A model generated the notes under the pieces. The model was not told where the DNA came from, searched no databases, and saw only the letters and a list, made by a program, of their open reading frames with translations. A program made the position numbers and the translations under genes. DNA of 64,000 nt, taken from the NCBI GenBank assembly GCA_020161665.1, contig JAIUPA010000034.1:1-64000 (forward strand), read 5' to 3'. This stretch comes from Pseudomonadota bacterium. Lineage in GTDB: Bacteria > Pseudomonadota > Alphaproteobacteria > Rhizobiales > Rhizobiaceae. Below are positions 12,703 through 34,911 of the stretch, in pieces. Each line of letters starts with the position of its first letter. Within the stretch, counting starts at the first letter, position 1.

Positions 12703-12703
12703 C

Positions 12704-14304: not shown

Positions 14305-14306
14305 TC

Positions 14307-15124: not shown

Positions 15125-15137
15125 CGGGGGCTGAAAA

Positions 15138-15542: not shown

Positions 15543-15556
15543 GGCGCGGCGGATCG

Positions 15557-17968: not shown

Positions 17969-19538
17969 CTTTTCACATATCCCTGATCCGTTCGGGTACG
18001 GCGAACGGGCCGTCAGGTTCCTTCGAAACCTGAAGCACCCAAAATCCACGCTGCCCGGAAAGCCTTTCCAGCTTGACCCGTGGCAAGAGGAAATCGTTCG
18101 CCGCATCTATGGCCCTCGTCATCCGGACGGGCGGCGCAAGGTGCGAACCGTCGCCATGCTTTTGCCGCGCGGAAACCGCAAGACTTCGCTCGGTGCGGCG
18201 CTGGCGCTCCTTCACACCATAGGCCCGGAAAACATTCAGGGTGGTGAAGTGATGAATGCTGCTTCTGACCGGAAGCAGGCGCGCATTGCCTATGAAGAGG
18301 CCTTGAACATCATCCGTTGTGATAGCCGGATCGATGGGCGCGTGAAGCTGACAGACAGCCGCAATCGCATCCAGAACCCGAAAACGGGTGCGTTCATGGA
18401 GGCGGTCTCTTCTGACGCGGCAACCGCCCATGGTCATACGCCCGTCTTCGCCCTGGTCGATGAAATCCACGCTTGGAAAAAGCGCGATCTTTGGGAGGCT
18501 ATCCGTTCCGGTCTTGTGAAGGTTCCCGGATCGCTTCTTGTCGTGATCTCGACGGCTGGGCGCGGACAGCAAAATCTCGCATGGGATTTCTTCGACTACG
18601 CCCGAAAGGTGGCGCGCGGTGAGGTTGCCGATGAAACAGTATTGCCGGTTCTTTATGAAGCGCCACGCGATTGCGATTGGCAGGACGAGTCCGTTTGGTA
18701 TTCGGTCAATCCCGGACTGAGACACGGTTATCCCGACATTGAGGGGTTGCGGCAGGCCTGCCGTGAGGCGGCTGAAATCCCGGCTGAGCGTGAAGCGTTC
18801 AAGCAATACAATCTGAATATATGGCTCGATTACTCCGATGATCCGTTCGTTGACATGTCGGTTTATGATGAAGGGGCCTTCCCGGTCGATCCTGATGACC
18901 TTGAGGGTGAACGGTGCTGGCTTGGTGTGGACTTGTCGTCAACCGGCGACCTGACATGCGTTGTGGCCTGCTGGAGCGTCAACGGGGCTTTTGCTGTCCA
19001 TCCTTGGTTTTTCTGCCCTGAAGAGCGATTGCGCGCGCGGGCTGAGCGCGACGGCGTTTCTTACGTGCGCTGGGCAGAAGAGGGGTTGATTACGCCCACG
19101 CCCGGCGCTGCGGTTGACTATCGGTTTGTCGAAGATCGCATTCGCGAACTTTGCGCCCGGTTCATGGTTTGCGAAATCGCATTCGATCCGCACATGGCGC
19201 GCAATGTCCTGAACAATCTTCTCGAAGACGGCTTCCCGGCAGTGGAAATGCGGCAGGGCTGGGCAACCATGGCACCCGCTGTCAACGAGCTGGAGCGGGC
19301 TATTATCGGTCGCCGGTTCCATCATGGCGGTCATCCGATTCTGCGGTGGAACTTCGATAACATCGCCGTTCAGACAGACAGTGCCGGAAACCGTTCCTTC
19401 CACAAGGGCAAGAGCCGGGATCGCATTGACGGCGCGGTGGCAACGGCAATGGCTGTGGCTCGCTGTGCTGCCGGTGATACCGGCGTTTCTTCCTATGACA
19501 CTTTCACTGGCAACATTGAGGAATGGAGTTTCGCCTGA
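17943..19538 (+). CDS. Large terminase (prophage, terminase_1 type)
   Basis: A 531-residue packaging motor. Adenine/Walker A region MLLPRGNRKTSLG, Walker B with acid pair FALVDEIHAW, coupling motif VVISTAGRG, nuclease acids in WLGVDLSSTGD and the terminal DRIDGAVATAMA. It is not closely related to the GTA terminase interrupted by this element (different Walker A and overall length), so it would not simply replace it. ATG 17943 overlaps the small subunit. Confidence 0.95.
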   Translation: MSEPFLTSDFSHIPDPFGYGERAVRFLRNLKHPKSTLPGKPFQLDPWQEEIVRRIYGPRHPDGRRKVRTVAMLLPRGNRKTSLGAALALLHTIGPENIQGGEVMNAASDRKQARIAYEEALNIIRCDSRIDGRVKLTDSRNRIQNPKTGAFMEAVSSDAATAHGHTPVFALVDEIHAWKKRDLWEAIRSGLVKVPGSLLVVISTAGRGQQNLAWDFFDYARKVARGEVADETVLPVLYEAPRDCDWQDESVWYSVNPGLRHGYPDIEGLRQACREAAEIPAEREAFKQYNLNIWLDYSDDPFVDMSVYDEGAFPVDPDDLEGERCWLGVDLSSTGDLTCVVACWSVNGAFAVHPWFFCPEERLRARAERDGVSYVRWAEEGLITPTPGAAVDYRFVEDRIRELCARFMVCEIAFDPHMARNVLNNLLEDGFPAVEMRQGWATMAPAVNELERAIIGRRFHHGGHPILRWNFDNIAVQTDSAGNRSFHKGKSRDRIDGAVATAMAVARCAAGDTGVSSYDTFTGNIEEWSFA

Positions 19539-21775
19539 TGGCTGAAGATGAAGAGCGCCTTGTTGTTCTGCTGGAAGCGCGGATCAAAGACCTTGAACGG
19601 AACATGGCGAAGGCGTCGGGCGTCACATCTCGACGCTTCCGGGAAATGTCGCTTCATTCCAAGCGGGCGACAAAGCAAATGGAGGATGATGCGGTTCGCT
19701 CGACGACCCGCATCAATCAGGCCATGGCGAGTGTTGGAACGCGTATTGGTGACTTCGGGCGGGCCTTTGGTGGAAACCTTCTGGCAGGCGCAACGCTGAG
19801 CGTGGCGGGCTTCGCTGCTGCTGTGAAGGGTGCCATTCAAAGCACGGCAGAATTAAGCCGGCAGGCGCGCCTTGCTGGCGTCGGGGTAGAGGCCTTTCAG
19901 GAACTCAAGTTCATTGCCGAACAGAACAAGATTGGCGTTGATGCTTTGGCCGATGGCTTGAAAGAAATGAACCTTCGCGCTGATGAGTTCATTTCAACGG
20001 GCGCTGGTGGTGGTGCCGAGGCATTTCAGCGCCTCGGTTACAGTGCCGAGGAGCTGGCCGAAAAGATCAAACAGCCTTCGGAACTCTTTGTCGAAATCAT
20101 CGGGCGGATGAAGCAGTTCGAACGGGCGGCACAAATCCGCCTTGGTGACGAGATTTTCGGGGGGCAGGCCGGGGAACGCTTTGTCGAACTTGTCGATCAC
20201 GGCGCGCAAGGCCTGAAGGAAGACATCCGCCTTGCCCGTGAAATGGGTATCGTCATGGAAGAGGGGATGGTCAAACAGGCTGAGGAGGTTGATCGAAAGG
20301 TCAACATTCTGGCCACTGTGATCGGCACGAAGCTCAAGGGCGCGATTGTCGAGGCGGCGCAAGGCTGGCTTCTGTTCTTCAACTCGTGGCAGGCTTTCGA
20401 AGAGCAGTCCGACAAGCGCGTGAGAAACGCCCTGGGCGATGTCTATTCCCAGATCGATACCGCAAAGCAGGAACTCGCAGACCTTGCGAACTCCAAGAAT
20501 GCCTTCCCCGGTGATATCAGCATCGACCTGAATATTGATCGCCAGAAGCAGCGCATTGACGAGCTGACCGGCGAGGCGCTGAAGCTTCGCGATATCCTCG
20601 ACAGGCGACAGGGCTACACGCCAGAAGGTGCGGTTGCGGCACCCAAACAAGAGCCGATGAAGGATACCGGCGCGGATTTTATTCGCAGCTACCGGGAAGA
20701 GCTTTCCAAGACGAACCGGGAAAGGCAGATCGCTTCGGAAGCCGAACGCATTCTGGCGGATGCTGCCAGCAAGGGCGCGAAGCTGACCCGTGATCAGGCG
20801 AATGCCCTTGCGGCGGAAAGCGTTGCCAGAGGTGAGCGGGATGCGGCGGCCCGCAAATCGGCTTCTGAAAGCGAAAAGAGCGCCAAGGCTACGGAAGCCG
20901 AACGGCAAAAGGTTGCCGATCTGATCCGCGACCTTGAAACGGAAATCGGCCTTGTATGGGCAAGCGATGAGGCGAAGCGGGCAAATGCGGCTTCCCGCGA
21001 GGCTGGTGCGGCGGCAACCGAGGGCGAGCGCCAAAAGATCATCGCGCTCAATGAGCAGCTATTCAAGGAGCAGGAAGCCCGGCAAAAGTCGGAAGAGGCA
21101 ATCCTGTATTATCGTGATCTCACCCGCGCCGGACTGGATGATCTTTTCAGCGCTTTAGAGCAAGGGAAAGACTTCTGGGAAAGCATGGGCGCAGCTGCCG
21201 TGAGTAGCCTGAAGCGCATTGCATCGACCATGCTGGATGATGTGCTTGATAGCATTTTCAAGGTGAACAATGCCGCATCGGGCGGGGGCGGCGGTTTCTT
21301 CTCGTCTTTGTTTGGTGGTCTCTTCGGCGGCGGAAGCTCGCAATGGGCGGCGGCATCCTCGGGCGCTCTTGCACCTGGTCTTTATGCCAACGGCGGCGCA
21401 TTTGGCCCATCCGGAGTAACGGCGTTCGCCAAGGGTGGATCATTCACAAACAAGGTTGTTGATCGACCAACCCTGTTTCCTTTCGCCAACGGCACGGGGT
21501 TGATGGGTGAGGCTGGGCCTGAGGCCATTATGCCATTGAAGCGGGACGCATCCGGCAGGCTCGGTGTATCTGCGCCGGGCGGGCAGGGTGCGCAAGGTGG
21601 CGCTGTTCAGGTTTCCAGCACCGTTGATGTTCGTGTTTCGGTTGATGACAGCGGCAACCTGAAGGCCTTTGTAGAGAATACCGCCTCTCGCGTGTCTTCC
21701 AGTCAGCTCGGCCAATATGACCGGCAAATGCCGGTGCGCGTTCGCCAGATCAACGCCAGCCCAAGGGTGGTTTGA
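19538..21775 (+). CDS. Tail tape measure protein (prophage)
   Basis: A 745-residue protein: N-terminal coiled coil (LEARIKDLERNMAKAS), hydrophobic helices near residues 70-110, a long charged helical middle (SESEKSAKATEAERQKVAD), a Gly-rich stretch (ASGGGGGFFSSLFGG) and the C-terminal block GLMGEAGPEAIMPLKR. The same C-terminal block ends the very short GTA tape measure at 34336-34911. It sets tail length; by the usual scale of about 0.15 nm per residue a tail near 110 nm would be expected. Confidence 0.92.
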   Translation: MAEDEERLVVLLEARIKDLERNMAKASGVTSRRFREMSLHSKRATKQMEDDAVRSTTRINQAMASVGTRIGDFGRAFGGNLLAGATLSVAGFAAAVKGAIQSTAELSRQARLAGVGVEAFQELKFIAEQNKIGVDALADGLKEMNLRADEFISTGAGGGAEAFQRLGYSAEELAEKIKQPSELFVEIIGRMKQFERAAQIRLGDEIFGGQAGERFVELVDHGAQGLKEDIRLAREMGIVMEEGMVKQAEEVDRKVNILATVIGTKLKGAIVEAAQGWLLFFNSWQAFEEQSDKRVRNALGDVYSQIDTAKQELADLANSKNAFPGDISIDLNIDRQKQRIDELTGEALKLRDILDRRQGYTPEGAVAAPKQEPMKDTGADFIRSYREELSKTNRERQIASEAERILADAASKGAKLTRDQANALAAESVARGERDAAARKSASESEKSAKATEAERQKVADLIRDLETEIGLVWASDEAKRANAASREAGAAATEGERQKIIALNEQLFKEQEARQKSEEAILYYRDLTRAGLDDLFSALEQGKDFWESMGAAAVSSLKRIASTMLDDVLDSIFKVNNAASGGGGGFFSSLFGGLFGGGSSQWAAASSGALAPGLYANGGAFGPSGVTAFAKGGSFTNKVVDRPTLFPFANGTGLMGEAGPEAIMPLKRDASGRLGVSAPGGQGAQGGAVQVSSTVDVRVSVDDSGNLKAFVENTASRVSSSQLGQYDRQMPVRVRQINASPRVV

Positions 21776-21777
21776 GG

Positions 21778-22137
21778 ATGGCCGATTTGTCAAAGCTTCT
21801 GTGTGCTGCCGTTCGCCGCAATCTTGAGAGGGGTGGCAGGCCTGTCATTCCGGCAGGCGGTGAACTTTTGTGGCGCTGGTTCAATGATATGCACAGCGCT
21901 CGCAGCTCGGGCATGAATGGCCCGAATCCGATCAGTTTTGAGGCGGTCGCGGCCTACGCCAGGCTGAACCGCTGGGCAATAGAGCCGCGTCATGTGTCCA
22001 TTCTGCAGGCCATGGACCGGGAGGTGATGGAGTATTTCAGGCGCTCGCGTCAGAGCGGCCCGCCCGGAGTGAAAGCCCTGCCGCCGATCTCGGACAGGCC
22101 GATTTCCGCCGCTGTTCTTGATGCAATGTTCGGGTGA
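21778..22137 (+). CDS. Small prophage protein after the tape measure
   Basis: A 119-residue protein with the segment ISFEAVAAYARLNRWAIEPRHVSILQAMDREVM, a pattern (helix, 'W-x-IEPRH', 'MDRE') common in small phage tail-assembly proteins that decide whether a residue is 'near the tail chaperone' type. GAGG precedes ATG 21778. The position after, not before, the tape measure is unusual for a chaperone, so the role is inferred and weak. Confidence 0.6.
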   Translation: MADLSKLLCAAVRRNLERGGRPVIPAGGELLWRWFNDMHSARSSGMNGPNPISFEAVAAYARLNRWAIEPRHVSILQAMDREVMEYFRRSRQSGPPGVKALPPISDRPISAAVLDAMFG

Positions 22138-22141
22138 TGTG

Positions 22142-23086
22142 ATGGCTTATCTTGCGAGGAAGAAAAAAAAGGAAAAGCAAAAAGCGAAGGTTTCCCAGGT
22201 CATTGGAGGAGAGCGCAGGAATCATGTGATTAATCAGGTTATGGATGTGCTGCGGGATTGGCGGTCATCAGCTTTCGAGTTTGAAGGTGTATGCCGCGCC
22301 AGTCTTCGTTCTGCACTGTGCGTTCAGGGATATGGCTGGGACCATTCGGATGCTGAGGCGGAAAGCATCTTGGCCGAGTGCTTCACCAGAATGGGCGCAA
22401 AGCGGCCTACCTGGTATGAGGGGCAGCGCGAATATCTTGAACCCCGTGAAAATTGTTCCTGGTGTTCCAAGCCTCTAGCTGACGATCTTCAGCGCAGCGG
22501 TTCGCGTTCCATGTACTGCTCTGACGTGTGCGCCCGCACTGCCATTGTGTACAGGACGGCGGCTGGAAAAGTGAGTTCCGACAAGGCCTATTCTGCTGCA
22601 TATGATGCGATGAGGCGGCTGAATTCCCCGGTTCGCCAGTGTTCGGTTTGCTCAAAAAACTTTCGTTCGGCGCACGCACCACAGCATTGTTGTTCCATTG
22701 AGTGCCGTGCCGCTTCTAGGGTTCTCATACCCACATGTACCTGCCAATATTGCGGTATTGAGTTCAGGCCGAGAATGTCGGTGAAATTTTTTGAGGATGG
22801 GCGTGGAAAGTTCTGCAGCCTCGAATGTAAGGGCAAGCACCAAAGCGAGGAGCGTTTCAACAGGCAATGTGTCTTCTGCTCTACATGGTTTATCTCAGCG
22901 TCGAGAAATGCCAAGTACTGCTCTTCCAGTTGCACAAATATGCGCTTTCGCGCATCTAAGGGCGTCTTTCCCACGAACCTAAATGTTAGGCTGTTTGACT
23001 ATCTATTCGTGACGCTACCACGGGAATCGGGGCCGCCACGGATCACCGCCGATATCTTCGATGTCTGTTTTGCGAGGGCGGCCTAA
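22142..23086 (+). CDS. Protein with four CxxC...CxxxC zinc-knuckle repeats (prophage)
   Basis: A 314-residue protein with a very basic start (RKKKKEKQKAK) and four repeats of the layout CxxC - aromatic - about 15-25 residues - YCSxxC: CSWCSKPL/YCSDVC, CSVCSKNF/CCSIEC, CQYCGIEF/FCSLEC and CVFCSTWF/YCSSSC. Each repeat can bind one zinc ion. The family is not recognised; repeats of this kind occur in nucleic-acid-binding proteins. It is the last gene of the rightward structural operon, in the place where tail-tip genes would be expected, and its base composition is poorer in GC than its neighbours. Confidence 0.75.
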   Translation: MAYLARKKKKEKQKAKVSQVIGGERRNHVINQVMDVLRDWRSSAFEFEGVCRASLRSALCVQGYGWDHSDAEAESILAECFTRMGAKRPTWYEGQREYLEPRENCSWCSKPLADDLQRSGSRSMYCSDVCARTAIVYRTAAGKVSSDKAYSAAYDAMRRLNSPVRQCSVCSKNFRSAHAPQHCCSIECRAASRVLIPTCTCQYCGIEFRPRMSVKFFEDGRGKFCSLECKGKHQSEERFNRQCVFCSTWFISASRNAKYCSSSCTNMRFRASKGVFPTNLNVRLFDYLFVTLPRESGPPRITADIFDVCFARAA

Positions 23087-23109
23087 CGATGAATTCGCTG
23101 GATCCTGAG

Positions 23110-23185
23110 GGTGGGGAAACTCCCCACCTGAAAAGCGTTGCCATCCGGAGCGCTTTTGAAAAACGTTTCAGATAAAAACGTTTTT
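23110..23185. terminator. Bidirectional terminator region between convergent prophage genes
   Basis: GGTGGGGA (23110-23117) pairs with TCCCCACC (23121-23128) over a three-base loop; AAAAGCG (23131-23137) pairs with CGCTTTT (23151-23157); and AAAAACGTTTTTT lies near 23174-23186, followed by TATTTTT. The structures lie between the rightward gene ending at 23086 and the leftward gene ending at 23204 and can stop transcription from both sides. Confidence 0.7.
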
Positions 23186-23203
23186 TATTTTTCCCGATGG
23201 GAC

Positions 23204-23482
23204 TTATTTCAGGCGCTGCGGAAGGGTTGGAATGCGCGGCTGGAGTGTGGGGAGTTTAGTCTTGGGTTCAGGTTTGGCTTCCAATGCCTTGAGGCCGGTG
23301 GTTGTAAGGCAGTAGCAGAACGCCGCCGGGTCTTGACTCCAAGGTGCCCTGGTTGCGTACCCAAGGCTTACCAGTTCGAGCGCCATGGTTTCGCTTATGT
23401 ATGGAATGTGATGTATAGGTTCATCCAAGCTAGCAGATTTCAAGGCATTGATAGCCTTGATGATGGCAGGTCTTTCACGCAT
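23204..23482 (-). CDS. Small prophage protein co-transcribed with the repressor
   Basis: A 92-residue protein beginning MRERPAIIKAINALKS, with a winged-helix-like middle (SETMALELVSLGYATR) and a proline-rich tail. It overlaps the end of the XRE-type gene upstream by eight bases, so the two are coupled. No specific family recognised. Starts further upstream within the frame would run deeply into the repressor gene and are rejected. Confidence 0.55.
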   Translation of the reverse strand: MRERPAIIKAINALKSASLDEPIHHIPYISETMALELVSLGYATRAPWSQDPAAFCYCLTTTGLKALEAKPEPKTKLPTLQPRIPTLPQRLK

Positions 23483-23744
23483 CGCTTTGACTTTCCGTCT
23501 TTTTAAGGCGAACGCCCGGCCCCTCGCCATTTTCCGGGACGAAAACAACGCCAGCTGCTTCCAATGCAGATTTTACTGCTTTCACATTATTCGCAAGACC
23601 TGTTGCGGGACCTGTGCTGGCCTCCATTCTTCGCAACGTAGGCACTGATATGTTTGCCGCAGTCGCTAACTTATCCTGGCCCATTCCTATGAGAATGCGA
23701 CCAGCCGCAATTTGTCGACCCAAAATTTGATCTTTTTCGCTCAT
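23475..23744 (-). CDS. XRE-family repressor-like regulator (prophage)
   Basis: An 89-residue protein with a Cro/CI-type helix-turn-helix (RQIAAGRILIGMGQDKLATAA, ISVPTLRRME) and the short tail FVPENGEGPGVRLKK typical of many rhizobial XRE regulators. It is transcribed divergently from the operon that ends with the integrase and is the only candidate for lysogeny control. It has no cleavable LexA-like C-terminal domain, so induction by RecA-stimulated self-cleavage is not expected. A GTG at 23753 is an alternative start. Confidence 0.82.
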   Translation of the reverse strand: MSEKDQILGRQIAAGRILIGMGQDKLATAANISVPTLRRMEASTGPATGLANNVKAVKSALEAAGVVFVPENGEGPGVRLKKTESQSDA

Positions 23745-23823
23745 ATCGATCACTAACTATTGACTTTCGCTCTTTTTGAGCGGATTCTTTCAAGAAGATC
23801 AAAACATATCACGGAGCAGCGCG
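23745..23823. promoter_or_regulatory. Divergent control region between repressor and the integrase operon
   Basis: TTGACT (23760-23765) is followed 17 bases later by a weak GATTCT, reading rightward. The dyad GCTC-TTTTT-GAGC (23769-23781) and the dyad TTCTT-TC-AAGAA just after it are candidate operators for the XRE protein. GGAG at 23813-23816 serves the gene starting at 23824. Confidence 0.45.
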
Positions 23824-24312
23824 ATGGGCTACCATTTTCGCGAACAGGAAATTTTTGTCCAAAATGAAGTATCTCGCCGGTCAATTCTGAAAGGGATTTT
23901 GGTCGGAGCCGCTGCGGGTGTGCCTGTCGCAGCGGAGGCAAATGCAACCACCGATGAAGAGCAGCTCGAAACCTGCCTGGCGCAGCTCAGCGACGTTCTT
24001 GCTCGGATGCACCCGAACATCAAATCGCCGCCCCGTCACTATCTCTCGCGCCGGGAAGATGGCTCTTTCCGCCTCGATGTTCGCGGCGATGTGGAATTCC
24101 AGCCATTCCAAGGTGACGGGGCGTATCTCGTCAGCATTGACGGGCGTATCTGCATTTACCTCGTGCGCGAAGAGCCAGTAATAACGCTGTCCGGTCGCAA
24201 TCTCGGTTACAGTCATTTCTACGGGCGGGTTTGGTGGAATGGCGCATGGAGCGATAACGAGTGCATCATCTCTCCAAACTTCATACGCAAGTTGGAGGAG
24301 GCTTCGCTATGA
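23824..24312 (+). CDS. Prophage protein with a Tat-like signal, unknown function
   Basis: A 162-residue protein. Residues 17-23 read SRRSILK, which fits the twin-arginine motif, followed by a hydrophobic segment (GILVGAAAGVPVA) and an AEANA cleavage-like end, so export of a folded protein is likely. The mature part has a helical stretch and a beta-rich half (RLDVRGDVEFQPFQGDGAYLVS, then GRVWWNGAW). The family is not recognised. GGAG lies seven bases before ATG 23824. It is the first gene facing the repressor, where phages usually have cro. Confidence 0.65.
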   Translation: MGYHFREQEIFVQNEVSRRSILKGILVGAAAGVPVAAEANATTDEEQLETCLAQLSDVLARMHPNIKSPPRHYLSRREDGSFRLDVRGDVEFQPFQGDGAYLVSIDGRICIYLVREEPVITLSGRNLGYSHFYGRVWWNGAWSDNECIISPNFIRKLEEASL

Positions 24313-24662
24313 GCATCCACTTCCGCCCCTCAGAGAATTTCAGCCGAATCGTTGAACTGACGCCGCAACTGCGCCGAGAGATCGAAGCGACCGTTGAGCG
24401 CCTGATTGCCATTCTCGACGTGTTCGATGGCGACGAAAACTGTGAAGACGATGCCTACGACGACCGGGAGGATGAGGATGAACACGGTGGCGACATTCTC
24501 GATGAGCCCCATGATGATCAGGATGAGGGTGAACCGTGGCTAGGTTGGACGGAAGTGGTCAATCAGACGGATATGTGGCGTTTAGCTGGCGGCATCCTGC
24601 TTGATGGTGAAATGGATGCCTATGGCGAGCCTGATAATTCTAAAAGCGATAACATCTTTTAG
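24309..24662 (+). CDS. Acidic prophage protein of unknown function
   Basis: A 117-residue protein: a helical N-terminus (LTPQLRREIEATVERLIAIL), a highly acidic middle (DDAYDDREDEDEHGG) and a WLGWTE segment. Similar proteins are scattered in rhizobial genomes and phages without a known function. It overlaps the preceding gene's stop (ATGA). Confidence 0.6.
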   Translation: MSIHFRPSENFSRIVELTPQLRREIEATVERLIAILDVFDGDENCEDDAYDDREDEDEHGGDILDEPHDDQDEGEPWLGWTEVVNQTDMWRLAGGILLDGEMDAYGEPDNSKSDNIF

Positions 24663-24727
24663 TCTGGTAAATTTCTAAATGAAATGATATCCATTAGCTA
24701 AAGGATTTTGATACCGTTGGAGTGATC

Positions 24728-25606
24728 ATGGCAACGTCTGGTGATTTGTCGCGAGTGGTGGCGAAGAATTTCAACTTACCTGAAGTGACGGTAGCCAACT
24801 GCTACCGCGCTCTTCGTGAGGCTGGATTAGTTCCAAAAGCAGGGAGGGGACCGCGCAGCGCTGCACCCGTTACGAGCGAAACCGCCGCCAAACTTCTGAT
24901 TGCTCTGTGTGGTTCACGATACGAAAAAGAGCCCGCGCCGAAGGTGCTGGAGAGTTTCGATGGACTAGTTTCACATTGGGCAGAATTTCGCGATGACACT
25001 ATGCATGAGTATGCGGAGTGCGACCCAATTTTCCGGCTTCCTGGATACAGTCTTCCATGCTTGGAGGCTCTTGGTCCCCGCCACAGTTTTCTTGATGGAC
25101 TTACGGCAGTTATTGAGACGGCTGCGCGTGGTGAATTTCCGTTCAAATCGGTTCGTGAGCTTAGGATCCCTAATCGCGTGACAATCGGCGTGGAGATTGT
25201 GGCCGCTCCGGTTCGCAGTGCGACTATAGAGATCATGATCGGTGGAGTTGGGCTTGGAGGTTTCGTGAGTGCGAACGTCTCCTATCGTCATATTGATGAC
25301 GAACAGCGAGATCGTGAAGAGCTTCTGGCGTTTATGGTGAACGCAGACCTGTCGATCACTAGAAGGTTTCGCGCGCCGACAATAATTGATCTTGGTGAAA
25401 TGCTAGGTGGAGAGCGGGCCGAAAGACGAAAGTCTTCTGTGGAACACGCACTCAATCAGATCGATGCTATTGTTTCTGCTGCTGACGCCAAAACCAAAAA
25501 CCTGCTGGAGACTGGTTCAGAGCATGAGAAGCAAGTTTTCCGGCTTGAGCTAAAGGCGATGATGGACAGCTTGGACCGGCTCCAGAAGGGGCTGGATGAT
25601 GGGTAA
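24728..25606 (+). CDS. Prophage protein, possible DNA-binding N-terminus
   Basis: A 292-residue protein. The first 60 residues contain a helix-turn-helix-like segment (LSRVVAKNFNLPEVTVANCYRALREAG) followed by a basic GRGPRSAAP linker; the rest shows a beta-rich centre and a helical C-terminus (NQIDAIVSAADAKTKNLL). No family assigned. It resembles regulators seen near integrase genes in rhizobial prophages. ATG 24728 has GGAG five bases upstream. Confidence 0.65.
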   Translation: MATSGDLSRVVAKNFNLPEVTVANCYRALREAGLVPKAGRGPRSAAPVTSETAAKLLIALCGSRYEKEPAPKVLESFDGLVSHWAEFRDDTMHEYAECDPIFRLPGYSLPCLEALGPRHSFLDGLTAVIETAARGEFPFKSVRELRIPNRVTIGVEIVAAPVRSATIEIMIGGVGLGGFVSANVSYRHIDDEQRDREELLAFMVNADLSITRRFRAPTIIDLGEMLGGERAERRKSSVEHALNQIDAIVSAADAKTKNLLETGSEHEKQVFRLELKAMMDSLDRLQKGLDDG

Positions 25607-25793
25607 CTCGCGATATCTGCAGGCAAAGCAGATTGCCGAAATACTCGGGTGCCGGACCGATTCGGTTCGTCGCATGTTTCGTGAAGGGAGGCTTCGCGGC
25701 GCATTTAAAGTTCCGGGAAAATCAGGGCGCATTCTCATGTCGACATCCGCTTTGCAACGGATGATGAAAGGGAAAGACGGAGGGCGTGGTTGA
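25599..25793 (+). CDS. Small excisionase-like helix-turn-helix protein
   Basis: A 64-residue protein with YLQAKQIAEILGCRTDSVRRM and a basic wing (GRLRGAFKVPGKSGRILMS), a MerR/Xis-type fold. It lies two genes before the integrase, so a directionality factor for excision is a natural role. ATG ATG at 25596/25599 gives a one-residue uncertainty; AAGGGG lies upstream. Confidence 0.75.
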   Translation: MGNSRYLQAKQIAEILGCRTDSVRRMFREGRLRGAFKVPGKSGRILMSTSALQRMMKGKDGGRG

Positions 25794-26071
25794 TGTCGGT
25801 AAAGGCTGAAAAGACTGCTGCAATCGTCCATGCTCGCCCGCCGTCCTACGTGTCGTGTGCGTCACTTGCTCTTGAGCTTGATGTGTCTGAAAGCACGGTT
25901 AGAGCACTCGTTGAAAAGGGTGTTTTGCCGAGGCCTATCAGGATCGAGGGTAATGTTCGTTGGCGTTGGGAAGATGTGAATGCTGCCCTGGGCGGTATCG
26001 TCGCTTCTGGCGGGAATAATGCGAGTGACCCTTATATGTCGGGGGCGCGCAATGCCACGGCGAAAAGGTAA
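25793..26071 (+). CDS. AlpA-like helix-turn-helix regulator
   Basis: A 92-residue protein with YVSCASLALELDVSESTVRALVEKGVLPRPIRI and RWRWEDVNAAL, the layout of AlpA/excisionase-type regulators, which in several satellites and cryptic prophages switch on excision. It starts on the stop of the previous gene and runs 20 bases into the integrase gene, so the three are one unit. Confidence 0.78.
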   Translation: MSVKAEKTAAIVHARPPSYVSCASLALELDVSESTVRALVEKGVLPRPIRIEGNVRWRWEDVNAALGGIVASGGNNASDPYMSGARNATAKR

Positions 26072-27146: not shown

Positions 27147-27174
27147 ATCAGCTAGTTACGGTGAAAAAGATGAA

Positions 27175-27182
27175 ATGTGTGA
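27175..27182 (+). repeat. attR core of the prophage
   Basis: ATGTGTGA, the second copy of the core at 8839-8846. Just upstream lies GGTGAAAAAGATGAA, which in the excised circle would stand in front of the first left-arm gene. Confidence 0.85.
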
Positions 27183-27300
27183 CTTTGGCCCGGATGGCCT
27201 CTCCGGCGGACGCTCGCCCGACCGGCTGGATGCGCTCGTCTGGGCACTGACCGCTTTGATGCTGGATGGCGCGGGCGAACCGCGTGTCCGGGGTGTTTAA
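27183..27300 (+). pseudogene. GTA large terminase, severed 3' part
   Basis: Codes for the last 38 residues of the terminase (FGPDGLSGGRSPDRLDAL and so on) after the att-encoded MCD, in the frame that joins exactly to the 5' part at 8846. The DRLDALVWA segment corresponds to the C-terminal acidic residue of the terminase nuclease. An ATG in the att core (27175) with GGTGA about ten bases upstream could in principle start a 41-residue peptide, but an independent function is unlikely. Confidence 0.88.
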
Positions 27301-27326
27301 TTAAAACGAATGGAATAGGAAAACCT

Positions 27327-27938: not shown

Positions 27939-28001
27939 ACGGTGATTGAGACGGACGCATTCGCATGCTATGCGGAGCATCCAAAATGAAGGGAGTTTCG
28001 C

Positions 28002-28310: not shown

Positions 28311-28345
28311 GGGCAATACGCCGCCCGAACCATGAGGACATCGCT

Positions 28346-29530
28346 ATGAGAATGCCCATCCGCCTGCCGTGGCAGCGCCCGGCGGACCGAAGTTCCGTGT
28401 CTGAAAACCACCCCGAAGAGATGAAAGCCGTCGCACCCTTTGCGGCGGTTTTTTCGTCTGCGGAAGGGGGCTGGTCGAACCGTCCCTATGCGGCGCTCGC
28501 CCGTGAGGGCTATCTGCGCAACCCCGTTGGCCATCGCTGTGTGCGGCTGGTGGCGGAAAGCGCTGCCGGTGTGCCGCTTCTGCTTTATGGCGCGGACGGC
28601 GAGCTGGATGAGCATCCGGCGCTTGCCCTGATGCGCCGTCCGAATGGTCGCCAGTCCGGCATCGAGTTTCTCGAAACGCTCTATGCGCATCTTTCGGTGG
28701 CGGGCAATGCCTTTATCGAGCCGGTAACGCTGGGCGGCGAGTTGCGCGAGCTTTACCTCCTGCGCCCGGACCGGATGCGGGTGATCGAGGGGCGTGATGG
28801 CTGGCCTTCGACCTATGAATACCGCGCCGGAAATACGGTGCGCCGCTTTGCCGTGGAAGGCGAAGGCCCGCGTCTGCTGCATCTCAAAACCTTTCATCCG
28901 CTAGACGATCATCTGGGTTATGCGCCGCTTTCGGCAGCGCAGGGCGCGCTCGATCTTCACAATGCCGCCGCCACCTGGAACAAGGCGCTTCTGAAGAATT
29001 CGGCCCGGCCATCCGGTGCGCTGGTCTATCAGCCGAAGGAGGGCGGCAATCTCTCGCCCGCGCAATATGAACGGCTGAAGCAGGAACTGGAGGACGGCTA
29101 TTCCGGCGCCGTGCGGGCCGGTCGTCCGCTGCTTCTCGAAGGCGGGCTCGACTGGAAGGCCATGGCACTTTCGCCGCGCGATATGGATTTCGTCGAGGCG
29201 AAGAATGGCGCGGCGCGTGACATTGCGCTCGCCATCGGCGTGCCGCCCATGCTGCTTGGTCTGCCGGGCGATAATACCTATGCCAACTATCAGGAGGCGA
29301 ACCGTGCCTTCTGGCGGCTGACGATCCTGCCGCTGATTGGCCGGGTCATGGGGGCGGTGTCGGTCTGGTTGTCGGAAGCCTATGGCGAAAGCCTGCGTTT
29401 TGAACCGGATCTCGACCGCATTTCCGGCCTGTCTGCCGAGCGCGGAGAATTGTGGCAGCGTCTGGAGCAGGCAAGCTTCATCACCGATGCCGAAAAGCGC
29501 GAGGCTGTCGGCTACAGCGCCGAAAGCTGA
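28346..29530 (+). CDS. GTA portal protein (RcGTA g3 type)
   Basis: A 394-residue HK97-type portal with RDIALAIGVPPMLLGLPGDNTYANYQEA, the family's core block, and SPRDMDFVEAKN. It forms the DNA entry ring of the GTA head. The block differs from the prophage portal (IARAFNIPASLIGDLTR), showing two separate head systems. It starts the uninterrupted downstream half of the GTA cluster. Confidence 0.94.
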   Translation: MRMPIRLPWQRPADRSSVSENHPEEMKAVAPFAAVFSSAEGGWSNRPYAALAREGYLRNPVGHRCVRLVAESAAGVPLLLYGADGELDEHPALALMRRPNGRQSGIEFLETLYAHLSVAGNAFIEPVTLGGELRELYLLRPDRMRVIEGRDGWPSTYEYRAGNTVRRFAVEGEGPRLLHLKTFHPLDDHLGYAPLSAAQGALDLHNAAATWNKALLKNSARPSGALVYQPKEGGNLSPAQYERLKQELEDGYSGAVRAGRPLLLEGGLDWKAMALSPRDMDFVEAKNGAARDIALAIGVPPMLLGLPGDNTYANYQEANRAFWRLTILPLIGRVMGAVSVWLSEAYGESLRFEPDLDRISGLSAERGELWQRLEQASFITDAEKREAVGYSAES

Positions 29531-29578
29531 AGCATTTCAGGGGCAGGGAAGGGGAAGCGGAATCGGAATCAGTACCGC

Positions 29579-29782
29579 TTGAATCCGTTTGCGAGGACGC
29601 TCAATCACCGCATGAGCGGCTTCAGAGCCTGCGTGAAGAAGCGGATTCAGCGTCTTAAAAAACGCGTCCAAGCGATTCTGGGGGTTCACCAATTCGATGC
29701 TGTTGAGACGCTGCTTGAACGCGGCGTTGAGAACAGACCCGGCTCCTTAGCAAACCAATCGTTAATGAAAGATAACCGATGA
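29579..29782 (+). CDS. Possible small basic protein between GTA portal and DUF6107 gene
   Basis: A 67-codon frame (TTG start) rich in Arg and Lys (CVKKRIQRLKKRVQAIL) whose stop overlaps the next start as ATGA. This coupling is the only support; there is no clear ribosome site and no recognised family. RcGTA clusters can have a small gene here (g3.5). The rest of the 248 bases between 29531 and 29778 holds nothing else I can identify. Confidence 0.3.
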   Translation: MNPFARTLNHRMSGFRACVKKRIQRLKKRVQAILGVHQFDAVETLLERGVENRPGSLANQSLMKDNR

Positions 29783-30099
29783 CGGACTTCGTACAGGAGC
29801 CCGGCTTCACCGCATTGCGCCTTCTGGGCGCAGCGTCCGGGGCTGCGGTATCGCTGGTCTATATGCTGCCGAAAAGCCGGCGCGAAGCGGCCAGCCGCTT
29901 TGTCACGGGCCTCGCCTGCGGGCTGATCTTCGGCCCCTCGGCGGGTCTGTGGATTGCCCGGCAGGCCGGTTTGGCGGACCTTTTGTCCACCCCTGAACTT
30001 CTGCTGATGGGCTCTGCCGCCGCCAGCCTTTCGGCCTGGTGGGTACTGGGTGCATTGACCCGGCTGGCCGCCCATTTTGGCGCGCCGCGGGGACACTGA
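29779..30099 (+). CDS. DUF6107-family membrane protein (GTA cluster)
   Basis: A 106-residue protein with three hydrophobic helices (LRLLGAASGAAVSLVYML, FVTGLACGLIFGPSAGLWIA, LLLMGSAAASLSAWWVLGAL). Proteins of this size lie at this place in rhizobial GTA clusters. Function unknown; a role in the membrane during assembly or release is speculation. Confidence 0.75.
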   Translation: MTDFVQEPGFTALRLLGAASGAAVSLVYMLPKSRREAASRFVTGLACGLIFGPSAGLWIARQAGLADLLSTPELLLMGSAAASLSAWWVLGALTRLAAHFGAPRGH

Positions 30100-30123
30100 A
30101 CAATCACGAAACGTGGAGATTTG

Positions 30124-30699
30124 ATGATGCACGCAGAAAAGCGGGCAAACCCTTTCACGCACAAATTTGCGAGCCTTTCGCTTTCGAAACTCTCCGGTGA
30201 TGGCTCCTTCTCGGGCTATGCGAGCCTGTTTGGCGAGGTGGATCTTGCCAAGGACCGCATTGAGCGCGGTGCCTTTGCCGCAAGCCTTGCCGAACGCGGC
30301 GCGGCGGGCGTTCGCATGCTCTACCAGCACGATCCGGCCGAGCCGATCGGGGCGTGGAAGATCATCCGCGAGGATGCCCGAGGCCTTTACGTCGAGGGGC
30401 TTTTGTCACCCGGCGTGGCGCGGGCCCGCGAAGTGCATGCGCTGATGAAAACCGGCGCGCTGGATGGCCTGTCCATCGGCTTTCGCACCGTGCGCGCCAA
30501 GCGCGATCCCGCGACCGGCGTGCGCCGCATTCTCGAAGCCGACCTTTGGGAAATCTCGGTCGTGACCTTTCCGATGCTGCCATCGGCCCGGGTCTCGAAC
30601 GTCAAGAACGCGCGGTTTTTCCGCGACAAGGAAACGGAACTCGTCCGCACCCTGCGGCGGGCGACCCGCAGCATGATCATGACAACCTTCAAGGGATAA
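30124..30699 (+). CDS. GTA prohead protease (g4 type)
   Basis: A 191-residue HK97-type serine protease: MLYQHDPAEPIGAWK (catalytic His), GALDGLSIGFRT (catalytic Ser) and LWEISVVTFPMLPSA. It trims the capsid precursor encoded next. ATG 30124 has GGAG seven bases upstream. Confidence 0.93.
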   Translation: MMHAEKRANPFTHKFASLSLSKLSGDGSFSGYASLFGEVDLAKDRIERGAFAASLAERGAAGVRMLYQHDPAEPIGAWKIIREDARGLYVEGLLSPGVARAREVHALMKTGALDGLSIGFRTVRAKRDPATGVRRILEADLWEISVVTFPMLPSARVSNVKNARFFRDKETELVRTLRRATRSMIMTTFKG

Positions 30700-30704
30700 T
30701 GCCG

Positions 30705-31949
30705 ATGACCATCGACACGCATAAGACTGCCCCCGAAATCAAGGCCGTGCCGGATACGGTGGCCTCCGCTTTCGACGAGTTCATGGAGGCCTTCGAGGCG
30801 TTCCGTGAAACCAACGACCAGCGTCTGGCCGAGGTGGAGCGCAAGCTTTCGCCCGATACGCTGACCGTCGAGAAGATGGACCGCATCAACCGCGCCATCG
30901 ACGACCAGAAGAAGCTGCTCGACCAGCTGCTGCTCAAGAAGGCGCGCCCGGCGCTGGGCGGTGGGGCTTCGGCGGAACCGTCTGAACACAAGTCGGCTTT
31001 CGAGACCTATGTGCGCCGGGGTGACGAAAGCGCGCTGCGCGAGATCGAGGCCAAGGCCTTTTCCGGCAGCACCGGCACCGATGGCGGCTATCTGGCCCCG
31101 CCGGAAACCGATGCGGCGGTCGGTCGTCGCCTTGCCAATATCTCGCCCATCCGTTCGCTGGCTACGGTGCGGCAGGTGTCCGGCGCGGTGCTGAAGAAGC
31201 CGTTTGCCACTGCCGGGCTTGCCACCGGCTGGGTGGGTGAAACGGCGGCCCGCCCGCAGACCAACACGCCGCAGCTGGCCGAGCTGTCCTTCCCGACCAT
31301 GGAACTTTACGCCATGCCGGCCGCCACGCAAGGCTTGCTCGACGATGCGGCGGTCGATATCGAAAGCTGGATCGCCGGTGAGGTGGAAATCGTCTTTGCC
31401 GAACAGGAAGGGGCTGCCTTCATCAATGGCGATGGCGTGACGGCACCGAAGGGCATTCTGACCGAACCCAAGGTGGCCGACACCAGCTGGGCCTGGGGCT
31501 CCCTCGGCACGATTTCCACCGGACAGGCGGGCGCCTTCAAGGCCTCCGGTCCTTCCGATACGCTGATCGATGCGATCTACGCGCTGAAGGCCGGTCATCG
31601 CCAGAACGCCACCTTCCTGATGAACCGCAAGACGCAGAGCGCTATCCGCAAGTTCAAGGATGCCGACGGCAATTATCTCTGGATGCCGCCGAGCGCACCG
31701 GGCATGGCTGCTTCGCTGATGGGCTTCCCGGTGGCTGAGGCCGAGGATATGCCGAACATCGCCGTGGATGCCCATGCCATTGCGTTTGGCGATTTCCGCG
31801 CCGGTTATCTGGTGGTTGACCGCGTCGGCCTGCGCATCCTGCGCGACCCCTATTCCGCCAAGCCTTACGTGCTGTTCTACACCACCCGCCGTGTTGGCGG
31901 CGGCGTGCAAAACTTCGAGGCGATCAAGCTCATCAAGTTTGCCGCCTGA
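30705..31949 (+). CDS. GTA major capsid protein (HK97 fold, g5 type)
   Basis: A 414-residue HK97-fold capsid subunit with an N-terminal helical delta region (EAFRETNDQRLAEVERKL) and the blocks TDGGYLAPPE, PAATQGLLDDAAVDIESW, NATFLMNRKTQSAIRKFKD, LMGFPVAEAEDMPNI and AIAFGDFRAGYLVVDR. The block order equals that of the prophage capsid. The ATG at 30705 has AAGGG nine bases upstream; ATG 30699 is too close to it. Confidence 0.95.
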   Translation: MTIDTHKTAPEIKAVPDTVASAFDEFMEAFEAFRETNDQRLAEVERKLSPDTLTVEKMDRINRAIDDQKKLLDQLLLKKARPALGGGASAEPSEHKSAFETYVRRGDESALREIEAKAFSGSTGTDGGYLAPPETDAAVGRRLANISPIRSLATVRQVSGAVLKKPFATAGLATGWVGETAARPQTNTPQLAELSFPTMELYAMPAATQGLLDDAAVDIESWIAGEVEIVFAEQEGAAFINGDGVTAPKGILTEPKVADTSWAWGSLGTISTGQAGAFKASGPSDTLIDAIYALKAGHRQNATFLMNRKTQSAIRKFKDADGNYLWMPPSAPGMAASLMGFPVAEAEDMPNIAVDAHAIAFGDFRAGYLVVDRVGLRILRDPYSAKPYVLFYTTRRVGGGVQNFEAIKLIKFAA

Positions 31950-31967
31950 TCGGTGAAGGCCGAGATC

Positions 31968-31996
31968 GTCACCCTCGGGCTTGCCCCGGGGGGGAC
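31968..31996. repeat. Half copy of a dispersed palindromic repeat
   Basis: GTCACCCTCGGGCTTGCCCC followed by GGGGGGGACG resembles the first palindrome of the element at 59098-59173 (GTCATCCTCGGGCTTGACCC). It lies in the 89 bases between the GTA capsid and connector genes. A transcribed palindrome here could stabilise or end part of the message. Confidence 0.5.
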
Positions 31997-32038
31997 GTGT
32001 CGGAACATCGCCACGCTTCGTAATCCCCGGGAGTTTCC

Positions 32039-32608
32039 ATGACCTATGCAACGCTTGCTCCGCCGGTGGCGGAACCCCTGACGCTGTCCGAAACGAAAGC
32101 GCATCTGCGGCTTGATAGCGCTGATGAAGATGCGCTCCTGTCGTCGTTGATCCGGGTGGCGCGCGAACATCTGGAACGCGAAACCGGGCTTTGCCTCATC
32201 GACCGGACGCTGCGGCTCTACCGCGACGACTGGCCGGAGGAAGATGTGATCCTGATCGATCCCGGTCCGGTGAAAGCGGTGACGGCGGTCACGGTCTATG
32301 ACGCCGCGGGTCAGCCCTCCACCGTGCCGCTGTCCGGTTCGCGGCTGGATGGCAACACCCGGCCTGCAAGGCTTTACCTGCCTGTGCGTCCGGCGCCGGG
32401 TGCGGCGCTGAACGGTATCGAGATCGATTTCACCGCTGGCTTTGGCAGCGCGGGAACGGATGTTCCCGATACGCTGAAGCGGGCGCTTTTGATGCATGTG
32501 GCGCTGATGTTTGCCTTTCGCGGTGCCGTGGCAGCCGACAGCCAGCCGGTCGCCGTGCCGGATGGCTATGAGCGTCTCGTCGCGCCCTATCGCCTGCGGA
32601 GGCTCTAG
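32039..32608 (+). CDS. GTA head-tail connector (gp6-like, g6 type)
   Basis: A 189-residue protein beginning with the connector family's first helix (TLSETKAHLRLDSADEDALL), a long beta-rich middle and TLKRALLMHVALMFAFRG at the end. It is almost twice as long as the prophage counterpart at 16021-16320. It forms the ring beneath the portal. Confidence 0.88.
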   Translation: MTYATLAPPVAEPLTLSETKAHLRLDSADEDALLSSLIRVAREHLERETGLCLIDRTLRLYRDDWPEEDVILIDPGPVKAVTAVTVYDAAGQPSTVPLSGSRLDGNTRPARLYLPVRPAPGAALNGIEIDFTAGFGSAGTDVPDTLKRALLMHVALMFAFRGAVAADSQPVAVPDGYERLVAPYRLRRL

Positions 32609-32944
32609 ATGCCGCTGGTATTCTTTGACCCCGGCCAGATGACGGCCCGGCTTGACCTTCAGCGTTCCGTCTCCGCCCCGGACGGACAGGGCGGGGCGAC
32701 CGTTTCTCAGGAGACGGTTGCCTCGCTTTGGGGGCGGATCGAACCCGTCTCAACCACGCTGACGGAGGAAGCCTCGCAGCGAATCTTCTCCATCACGCAT
32801 CGCATCTGGATCGCCTATCGCGCCGGCCTGATGGCAGGCATGCGCTTCGTGCGCGGCGAGCGGGTGTTCACCATCCGCGCCGTCAACGATCCCGACGAAA
32901 CGCGCCGTTATCTCGTCTGCCAGTGCGAGGAGGAGGGGGCATGA
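32609..32944 (+). CDS. GTA head closure protein (g7 type)
   Basis: A 111-residue head-tail joining protein (LDLQRSVSAPDGQGGATVSQ, ASLWGRIEPVS, RFVRGERVFTIRAVNDPDE). It starts directly after the previous stop and overlaps the following start. Confidence 0.9.
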   Translation: MPLVFFDPGQMTARLDLQRSVSAPDGQGGATVSQETVASLWGRIEPVSTTLTEEASQRIFSITHRIWIAYRAGLMAGMRFVRGERVFTIRAVNDPDETRRYLVCQCEEEGA

Positions 32945-33348
32945 GTGCTGCCAATACGCTGATGACAGCGCTTCAGGCGCGGCTGGGTGGCGACGCGACG
33001 CTGATGGGGCTGACGGGCAACCGCGCGCCGGTCGACCGGCTTCTCGATCGCACGGCGCTGCCGCTCATCGTCTGGGGCGAAATGGAAACGCGCGACGCAT
33101 CGACGGCGAGCGAACCGGGTGAGGAACACTTGTTTTCGCTGGCCGTATGGTCGGACGCCGAAGGGCGGCGCGTGGCCGAAGAGATCGCTGCAAGGATTAA
33201 ATTCCTCACCCATGACGCGGCGCTTGTCCTTCCCGGCCATGCCCTTGTCAGCCTGTTTCACCGTTCGACGCGCACCCGTCGCGAGCCGAAAAGCAAACGC
33301 TTCGTCGCGGAGGTGTTCTTCCGCGCCGTGACCGAACCTAACCCTTGA
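32941..33348 (+). CDS. GTA DUF3168 tail terminator (g8 type)
   Basis: A 135-residue DUF3168 protein (LGGDATLMGLTGNRAPVDRL, HLFSLAVWSDAEGRRVAEEI). It caps the tail tube at the head side. Its start overlaps the closure gene by four bases. Confidence 0.9.
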   Translation: MSAANTLMTALQARLGGDATLMGLTGNRAPVDRLLDRTALPLIVWGEMETRDASTASEPGEEHLFSLAVWSDAEGRRVAEEIAARIKFLTHDAALVLPGHALVSLFHRSTRTRREPKSKRFVAEVFFRAVTEPNP

Positions 33349-33361
33349 AAAGGATCGCCAG

Positions 33362-33769
33362 ATGGTTGCCCAGAAAGGCAAGGACCTTCTTCTGAAAATT
33401 CATAACGGCACGGCCTATGTCACGGTCGCGGGCTTGCGCTCCAAGCGCCTGTCCTTCAATGCCGAGACGGTGGATGTGACCGATGCCGAAAGCGCCGGTC
33501 GCTGGCGTGAGTTGCTGGGCGGCGCAGGCATTCAGCGCGCTTCGCTGTCCGGCACCGGCATTTTCAAGGATGCCGCTTCCGATGCCCGCCTGCGCGAGGT
33601 CTTCTTCGCGGGCGACATCGTTTCCTGCCAGATCGTCATTCCCGATTTCGGCACGGTCACGGGCCTGTTCCAGATTTCCGCGCTCGAATATTCCGGCCAG
33701 TACAATGGCGAAATGCAGTTCGAGGCGACGCTGGAATCGGCGGGCGCCCTGACCTTCGGTGCGCTGTGA
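33362..33769 (+). CDS. GTA major tail tube protein (g9 type)
   Basis: A 135-residue beta-rich tube protein of the phage major tail family: MVAQKGKDLLLKI, YVTVAGLRSKRLSFNAETVD, VTDAESAGRWRELL and FQISALEYSGQYNGEMQFE. There is a single copy, against two tube-like genes of another kind in the prophage. AAAAGGATCGCC precedes the ATG. Confidence 0.92.
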   Translation: MVAQKGKDLLLKIHNGTAYVTVAGLRSKRLSFNAETVDVTDAESAGRWRELLGGAGIQRASLSGTGIFKDAASDARLREVFFAGDIVSCQIVIPDFGTVTGLFQISALEYSGQYNGEMQFEATLESAGALTFGAL

Positions 33770-34125
33770 TGTGTGGCCGGGCCAACCGCAGGCGCGGTGA
33801 GGTGGATGCGGTCATCGGCGGCGAACGGCGCATTTTGTGCCTGACGCTCGGCGCGCTGGCCGAATTGGAAACCGCCTTTGCCGTCGATGATCTGGCAGCG
33901 CTTGGCAGTCGTTTCGCCACGGGGCGGCTGAAAGCGGCGGACTTGATCCGCATTATCGGGGCCGGGCTTCGCGGCGCGGGCAACCTGATCAGCGATGAAG
34001 AGGTGGCAGGCCTTGAGGTGGAAGGGGGCGTTGCCGGTGCGGCGCGCCTTGTCACCGACCTTCTGGCCGCCGCCTTCCATGCCGAAGGCTGGACCGCGCC
34101 GGACCCTTGCCCAACGGACCCTTGA
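33769..34125 (+). CDS. GTA-gp10 family tail assembly protein
   Basis: A 118-residue protein of the GTA-gp10 family (LTLGALAELETAF, DDLAALGSRFATGRLKAADL). In RcGTA it is needed for tail assembly and acts like a tape-measure chaperone. The start overlaps the tube stop. Confidence 0.87.
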   Translation: MCGRANRRRGEVDAVIGGERRILCLTLGALAELETAFAVDDLAALGSRFATGRLKAADLIRIIGAGLRGAGNLISDEEVAGLEVEGGVAGAARLVTDLLAAAFHAEGWTAPDPCPTDP

Positions 34126-34343
34126 ATACCGCAGCAGGCGCACCGCAACCCTTTCCCTGGGCCGCGGTGCTGCACACCGGGCTTTGCCTGTTGCGGATGC
34201 CCCCGAACACCTTCTGGACCATGACCCCGCGTGAGTTCTTTGCCGCCGCAGGCGGGTTGAAGCCGAGAGGCGACGCCCCTTCGCGCACCGATCTTGCCGG
34301 TCTTATGGCCCATTTCCCGGATGAGGAACACGTTGATGGATGA
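34122..34343 (+). CDS. rcc01693-like tail assembly chaperone
   Basis: A 73-residue protein (PFPWAAVLHTGLCLLRMPPN, FWTMTPREFFAAAGG) typical of the small gene between gp10 and the tape measure in GTA clusters, usually named after rcc01693. TTG 34122, overlapping the gp10 stop, gives the usual length; TTG 34107 is an alternative. Confidence 0.82.
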   Translation: MNTAAGAPQPFPWAAVLHTGLCLLRMPPNTFWTMTPREFFAAAGGLKPRGDAPSRTDLAGLMAHFPDEEHVDG

Positions 34344-34911
34344 AACCGACCTGACCAGTTTTGACGGCGCATCACAGGCGCTCGGCCAGACCATTTCCGA
34401 TCTTGAGGCCCGTTCGCGGTCCTTCGGTTCGGCGCTGACGGCGGCACTGAAAGGCGCGGTCGTCGATGGCAAGGGCCTCGACAGCGTGCTTCAGACGCTT
34501 GGCCTGCGGCTTTCTTCCATTGCCCTTTCGGCGGGGCTGAAGCCGCTCGAAAATCTCGTTTCCAGCGGCATGGAAAGCGTCATGTCCGGCATTGGCAGCC
34601 TGTTTGGCTTTGCCGATGGCGGCGTGCCGGGCCGCGTCGTGCCCTTTGCCAATGGCGGCGTGGTGTCTTCGCCCTCCTTCTTCCCGATGGGCGGTGACAT
34701 GGGCCTGATGGGCGAGGCCGGAGCGGAAGCCATTCTGCCGTTGAAGCGCGGTGCCGATGGCTCGCTGGGCGTGGCGATGAACGGCGCGGCAAGCGGCCCC
34801 TCGATTGTCTTTAACGTGACCGCCACCGATGCGGCGAGCTTCCGCAAGACCGAAGGCCAGATCGCCGCCATGCTGGCGCGCACCGCCGGACGCGGCCAGC
34901 GGCAGCTGTGA
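34336..34911 (+). CDS. Short GTA tape measure protein (g11 type)
   Basis: A 191-residue tape measure: a helical N-terminal half (LGQTISDLEARSRSFGSAL), a glycine-rich FADGGVPGRVVPFANGG region and the C-terminal block GLMGEAGAEAILPLKR. The short length agrees with the short tails of GTA particles (about 30 nm by the usual scale). The C-terminal block is shared with the prophage tape measure at 19538-21775, where it has GLMGEAGPEAIMPLKR. Confidence 0.92.
   Translation: MDETDLTSFDGASQALGQTISDLEARSRSFGSALTAALKGAVVDGKGLDSVLQTLGLRLSSIALSAGLKPLENLVSSGMESVMSGIGSLFGFADGGVPGRVVPFANGGVVSSPSFFPMGGDMGLMGEAGAEAILPLKRGADGSLGVAMNGAASGPSIVFNVTATDAASFRKTEGQIAAMLARTAGRGQRQL

Follow-up and report, generated by a model that had tools for sequence, protein, structure and literature searches.

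The question raised by this locus is whether the tail of one phage-like particle could be completed with the tail tip of another. In a window of 64,000 nucleotides of Rhizobiaceae DNA (the whole stretch analysed, from contig JAIUPA010000034.1), an earlier note had described two tape-measure proteins (TMPs), one of a prophage and one of a gene transfer agent (GTA), that have a common C-terminal block and differ fourfold in length, and had suggested that the long prophage tail could carry the GTA tip. The block and the difference in length are both found. Indeed, the block starts at 21497 (GLMGEAGPEAIMPLKRDASGRLGV) within the frame 19523-21775 (750 aa; 745 aa counted from the ATG at 19538) and at 34702 (GLMGEAGAEAILPLKRGADGSLGV) within the frame 34294-34911 (205 aa; 191 aa counted from the ATG at 34336), which gives a length ratio of 745/191 = 3.9, and a regular expression of the motif matches the six frames of the window at these two places only. 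Both proteins are tape measures according to PHROGs, the long one by phrog_10574 (E 1.3e-124) and the short one by phrog_32885 (E 1.4e-13, covering the C-terminal part). They are identical at 42 of 103 positions (41%, 59.3 bits), a similarity that is not due to chance given the E values of 9e-15 in a single-pair comparison and 2.8e-9 in a whole-genome search.

The note had also warned that the block is common and the match suggestive only, and this caution proves justified. At least 592 relatives of the block are found among viral contigs. Among the best 80 of these (at least 592) relatives, the gene located 3' of the TMP gene encodes a DUF2460 protein in a single case, a phrog_1302-type distal tail protein in five and neither type in 68, six offering too little room to see the next gene; the profiles of both tip types were built from few sequences and the class with neither type may hide distant relatives. 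For example, Rhizobium phage RHph_X3_2 carries the block, and the next protein after the TMP does not resemble DUF2460 (15% to that of the window). Over 70 residues, the block of the long TMP is 78% identical to that of a sister element and 79% to that of an unrelated viral TMP (L101), and its identity to the block of its own GTA is lower (56%). In a search for relatives of the long TMP, the GTA TMP of the window ranks 23rd among 36 GTA-sized frames (181-247 aa, picked by size and not each confirmed as GTA). The block is thus generic across viral TMPs and cannot by itself tell which tip fits. The shared motif was accordingly discarded as a proof of docking, DUF2460 following the TMP in only one of the best 80 of at least 592 relatives.

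What had been taken for a prophage is a phage-like element, holding the long TMP, that lies inside the GTA cluster itself, within its large-terminase gene. The insertion is delimited by the following features:

7522-8901, + strand: 5' part of the GTA large terminase (phrog_979/phrog_2), interrupted by the element, the open frame extending a few codons into it
8839-8846, + strand: left copy (attL) of the 8-bp core ATGTGTGA
8839-27174, + strand: inserted element, with a G+C content of 56.5% versus 61.9% in the flanks
27175-27300, + strand: right copy of the core and 3'-terminal part of the GTA terminase gene (41 codons, SPDRLDALVWAL)

As the core occurs only twice in the 64 kb (8839 and 27175), the element measures 18,336 bp. 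The 5' part of the terminase, of which 453 of 459 residues align to the intact TerL of relatives (G001, G002, G182 and G005), breaks off at LEDQMCD, and the last 38 residues are found to the right of the integrase gene; joining the flanks without the element restores a single open frame that matches the terminase of relatives. The part cut off includes SPDRLDAL, which probably contains a catalytic acidic residue of the nuclease in the terminase. The gene order of the GTA in relatives is terminase, (GH19, Dabb), portal, and the GH19 enzyme gene at 27327 is part of the GTA cluster here, just as it is in G001 and G002. The element is oriented along GTA transcription. The exact insertion and the repair of the frame can be read in the DNA; from them we infer excision of the element and silencing of the GTA. 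A terminase short of 38 residues suggests that the GTA would make no particles while the element is inserted, and since the element lies inside the large-terminase gene, GTA packaging should be off until excision.

The genes of the element are the following:

9336-10130, + strand: phrog_15967 protein with a helix-turn-helix and a weak likeness to replication initiators
10531-11817, + strand: portal (phrog_12, E 1.1e-93)
12196-13909, + strand: head protease (12196-12702) and major capsid protein (12656-13909) (phrog_80, phrog_10; PF05065)
14456-16021, + strand: two tail-tube-like proteins (14456-15124 and 15557-16021, phrog_158 for both) flanking a small protein (15138-15542)
15973-17549, + strand: head-tail adaptor, neck/tail completion, tail terminator and head closure proteins (phrog_40, 5, 176, 25)
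17531-17968, + strand: small terminase (phrog_83)
17832-19538, + strand: large terminase (phrog_9, E 1.8e-143)
19538-21775, + strand: TMP, 745 aa (phrog_10574), with the GLMGEAGPEAIMPLKR/GRLGV block from 21497
21772-22137, + strand: tail assembly chaperone (Phage_TAC_18; PF23812, E 1.6e-12)
22118-23086, + strand: cysteine-rich protein of 322 aa, present in 31 of 36 sister loci
23204-23753, - strand: two small genes, both open frames, probably a repressor region
25790-27146, + strand: excisionase-like protein and tyrosine integrase (phrog_66; PF00589 E 3.3e-5, just under the cut-off; integrase tree)

The two phrog_158 tail-tube-like genes (14456-16021) stand in tandem around the small protein gene. 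The two opposite-strand genes have no PHROG match, and homologs of the 23475-23753 frame are found in sister elements. PHROGs, Pfam and further searches matched no primase among the genes of the element, in which an excisionase-like gene is present. Furthermore, no DUF2460, distal tail protein, hub, fibre or lysis gene was matched by PHROGs or Pfam among the genes from 9336 to 27146. Without distal tail protein, hub and fibre, the element would have to take its tail tip from a helper.

This gene content is shared by a family. Of 199 genomes of the family of the host, 35 have relatives of the portal (E <= 1e-40), and the relatives that carry the module come from several genera. The end of the module found in the window (TMP, chaperone, cysteine-rich protein) recurs in G182, G078, G076, G141, G068, G173, IMGVR23 and L099, and the last genes of the G134 module are those of the TMP and the chaperone. 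Four other elements (G040, G035, G020 and G005) extend from portal to TMP without a chaperone match and, judging from frames only, have no hub-sized frame in the position of tail genes after the TMP, while three (G148, G164 and G178) have a head module and a terminase and no tail-tube or TMP match. By our reading of artefactual frames, the elements of G141 and G068 seem to lie at tRNA-like sequences, outside any helper. A scan with the TAC18 chaperone led to 36 viral-contig loci, all of which have terminase, TMP and chaperone; 31 also have the cysteine-rich protein and seven a distal tail protein matching phrog_1302. None of the 36 bears a label of DUF2460, hub, NlpC or megatron, many of these contigs stopping soon after the chaperone, so that tip genes may lie past their ends. 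In 13 relatives from genomes and two contigs, no hub-sized gene was found from the TMP to the end of the element. Only one of ten large unlabelled frames that were searched is tail-related, a fibre gene in L189 that belongs to the surrounding prophage. A scan with the distal tail protein yielded three loci, a number too small to serve as a control.

These data bear on two other views of the element. The first, a decayed prophage that has lost its tip and lysis genes, would account for the small size and for the lack of both sets of genes; it appears very improbable, as the identical tipless gene set in all 36 loci, together with relatives of several genera, points to conservation and not to decay, and as the reading frames of the element are open and its attachment cores intact. 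The second, a complete phage whose tip is minimal and escapes recognition, draws on the seven elements among the 36 that have a distal tail protein and on the conserved 322-aa protein, whose structure model (mean pLDDT 83.6) has no match in the PDB at E <= 0.001. Genes with too little resemblance to known ones, such as that of this protein, could indeed encode a tip. However, the 322-aa family also occurs in the tail-less elements G148 and G178, and no hub-sized gene is left in the element, which makes a minimal tip quite unlikely.

A clear example of a TMP end resembling that of a possible helper is given by the sister element of G182 (L057, L058), whose portal is 71% identical to that of the window element. 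This element sits between pieces of 373 and 1064 aa that are consecutive parts of a single gene, encoding tail protein J, in phage phi2LM21. Gene J of a phi2LM21-like prophage of G182 is thus interrupted, and the whole J of phi2LM21 matches both halves. The TMP end and the distal tail protein of the prophage itself are encoded immediately to the left of the element. The distal tail protein of the G182 element is 65% identical to that of this host prophage, versus 29% and 27% to those of the sister elements of G141 and G068, and the end of its TMP is 43% identical to that of the host prophage over 223 residues. The TMPs of the window and G182 elements are 48% identical in their N-terminal part and 62% in their middle part and have no C-terminal match. 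More generally, the N-terminal part of the TMPs of the family is conserved and their C-terminal end is of several types. Such a variable end would be expected of a swappable dock, G182 being one clear case. The GLMGEAG block is found in one of the seven elements with their own distal tail protein versus 14 of the 29 without (the 14 include L181, the window's own copy), an association with the absence of this protein that is suggestive only.

In the window, the GTA cluster resumes to the right of the element and includes tip genes:

28346-34125, + strand: GTA genes from portal to tail chaperone, in the same order in G001, G002, G182 and others
34336-34911, + strand: GTA TMP, 191 aa
35102-40850, + strand: GTA tail tip, i.e. 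DUF2460 protein, baseplate hub protein (PF09931), NlpC-type protein and megatron (PF13550)

The GTA itself could therefore be the helper, the tube of the element ending in the distal tail protein, hub and megatron of the GTA. The only DUF2460 protein and the only PF13550 hub of the whole genome are both encoded by the GTA, and no phrog_1302 protein was found in this genome. The likeness of the TMP ends, the embedding of the element in the GTA and the precedent of G182 point in the same direction. On the other hand, BLASTP detects no similarity between the tail-tube proteins of the element and of the GTA; in RcGTA, a long loop of the tube protein touches the distal tail protein and a TMP trimer fills the channel, according to the available part of PMC7296036. 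The block is moreover generic and not closest to that of its own GTA. A visiting siphophage as tip donor fits as well as or better than the GTA and may be the helper instead. The GTA is thus the sole resident tip candidate found and not a proven donor, and its role as helper appears unlikely, if possible.

Nearly all the relatives that were searched have a GTA cluster, DUF2460 being present in 16 of 18. In one locus with an insertion, L223, the neighbouring GTA (11131-12500) lacks portal, protease and capsid and retains the genes from adaptor to DUF2460; this counts in favour of the GTA as helper, but it concerns one contig, where the element has its own TMP. By our count, portal or capsid lesions affect 5 of 11 GTA stretches downstream of an insertion, versus tail-gene lesions in one of the six that reach those genes, in metagenome contigs to which sequence errors may contribute. 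Portal or capsid lesions were also seen in L220, L222, L226 and L228. The capsid of L260, a further candidate, was dismissed as it aligns whole from its true start.

The integrase shows how closely the element is tied to its site. Among 48 viral-contig loci with related integrases, all 15 integrases that are more than 60% identical are directly followed by the co-oriented 3' end of a GTA terminase (15/48, the window's own copy included, and L229 and L230 being identical in integrase), whereas none of the 33 at 53% identity or less is at this site. The left junction is at the same terminase codon in seven other loci (L224-L230), and the elements of L260 and L223 also have the 5' part of a GTA terminase on their left. 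In the integrase tree, the window's integrase and those of the 14 other GTA-site loci form one clade (93/100), G273 being outside. In this genome, from another family of the same order (L092, 14206), an integrase of opposite direction interrupts the GTA terminase at the same codon. More distant integrases are encoded at the 3' end of the tmRNA gene in six of 44 loci scanned (L235, L239, L241, L244, L246 and L259), and our reading places those of G568, G396 and G046 at tmRNA sites as well, which indicates that the integrase family has moved between attachment sites. The search for the integrase in 385 genomes of a sample of the class retrieved the window's own only, and that for the G182 integrase in viral contigs its own contig only.

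The site hosts several kinds of phage-like element, as shown by the differing make-up of L223, L218 and L224-L229. Six complete elements of 10.2-10.8 kb (L224-L229) all have terminase, portal and integrase, most have other head genes, and homology labels reveal no tail-tube, TMP or tip match, a minority of the unlabelled frames having been searched further. The portal, protease-capsid protein, TMP and terminase of the L223 element are all of other families. In L218 (4305-7511), the element encodes a baseplate hub (phrog_177) besides its protease and TMP, so that the GTA site is not reserved for tipless elements. It can thus be argued that the GTA terminase is merely a convenient conserved attachment site without any functional tie between element and GTA: GTAs are present in nearly all relatives, which makes the site widespread, related integrases use tmRNA, and elements of different make-up share the site. 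However, a late gene of a phage-derived cluster is broken without replacement sequence, as described for helper-embedded PICIs (HE-PICIs) in the accessible part of PMC10111431, and all 15 loci have one direction, with which neutrality is still compatible. We regard a mere attachment site as a serious possibility, with a somewhat less than even chance of being correct.

In the parts available of the source (PMC10111431), HE-PICIs are satellites located in late genes of a helper prophage, co-oriented with the target, which they break without replacement sequence. They are the closest precedent for the embedding: the late gene that the window element interrupts likewise belongs to a phage-type cluster, and its frame is restored when the element is removed. 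The differences, as far as this text goes, are that the interrupted gene is that of a GTA terminase (in the window and 14 other loci) or gene J of a prophage (G182), that the hosts are alphaproteobacterial by their RcGTA-type clusters, that the element has its own tail tube and TMP and that the AlpA/Bro/primase zones were not found in it. For head-coding satellites, the precedent is provided by capsid-forming PICIs, or cf-PICIs (PMC10690885, PMC13230959 and PMC10803314, in part), which, in the portions seen of the first two, carry head, connector, HNH and terminase genes and take tail parts from a helper. Like these, the element encodes capsid, protease, portal, connectors, small and large terminase and HNH. 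Unlike them, it also has tail-tube, TMP and tail chaperone genes and would need the tip alone; therefore, it is not classed as a cf-PICI. The 10-kb elements L224-L229 resemble cf-PICIs, so far as described there, in having no tail genes by homology labels. The interrupted cluster itself has the RcGTA order (terminase, portal, protease, capsid, adaptor, tail tube, TMP, DUF2460, hub, peptidase, megatron), with the same succession as in the available part of PMC7296036, unlike which its terminase is split. The N-terminal part of the TMP is 54.8% identical over 208 residues to that of Sinorhizobium phage phi2LM21 (MF614627). Unlike the element, this 46.6-kb phage carries tip genes of its own 3' of the TMP gene. 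The search of the open literature brought up no study of satellites or prophages residing in the terminase gene of a GTA, subscription papers being mostly outside this search, and the accessible main text of PMC7947584, on GTA terminases, contains no words beginning with interrupt-, truncat- or insertion.

Globally, the element is probably a satellite-like relative of phages that needs a borrowed tail tip, the C-terminal block of its TMP being a swappable dock. It would make its own head and package its own DNA, build its own tail tube around its own TMP and take the tip from a helper, the block being the exchangeable part that would fit the tip of this helper. From gene content, the family and the variable TMP end, we infer helper dependence and docking by the block. 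The proposal that the prophage tail could carry the GTA tip can thus be divided. An own tube with a borrowed tip is well supported by the lack of an own tip gene, the embedding in the GTA and the G182 case, while the block fails as an argument (DUF2460 next to it in 1/80), the tube proteins are unlike, and the GTA's tip on the tail of the element is only possible.

The finding thereby appears to widen from two similar TMPs to a satellite-like element that lacks a tip, is embedded in a GTA and has an integrase of a clade dedicated to this site. A more far-reaching reading, which we hold to be doubtful, is that of GTA-embedded satellites with a dedicated integrase clade, in which GTA induction would transcribe, free and arm capsid-forming elements that would exit in hybrid particles with their own head (and here their own tube) and GTA tail parts; if so, a supposedly domesticated particle would have its own parasites. 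The system offers a direct test of mutual recognition between TMP ends and distal tail proteins, and of whether mobile elements parasitise GTAs or switch them off. If the proposed dependence is true, a tail tip can be all that a satellite takes from its helper, the TMP C-terminus would determine which tip is fitted, and GTAs would join phages as sites where satellites reside.
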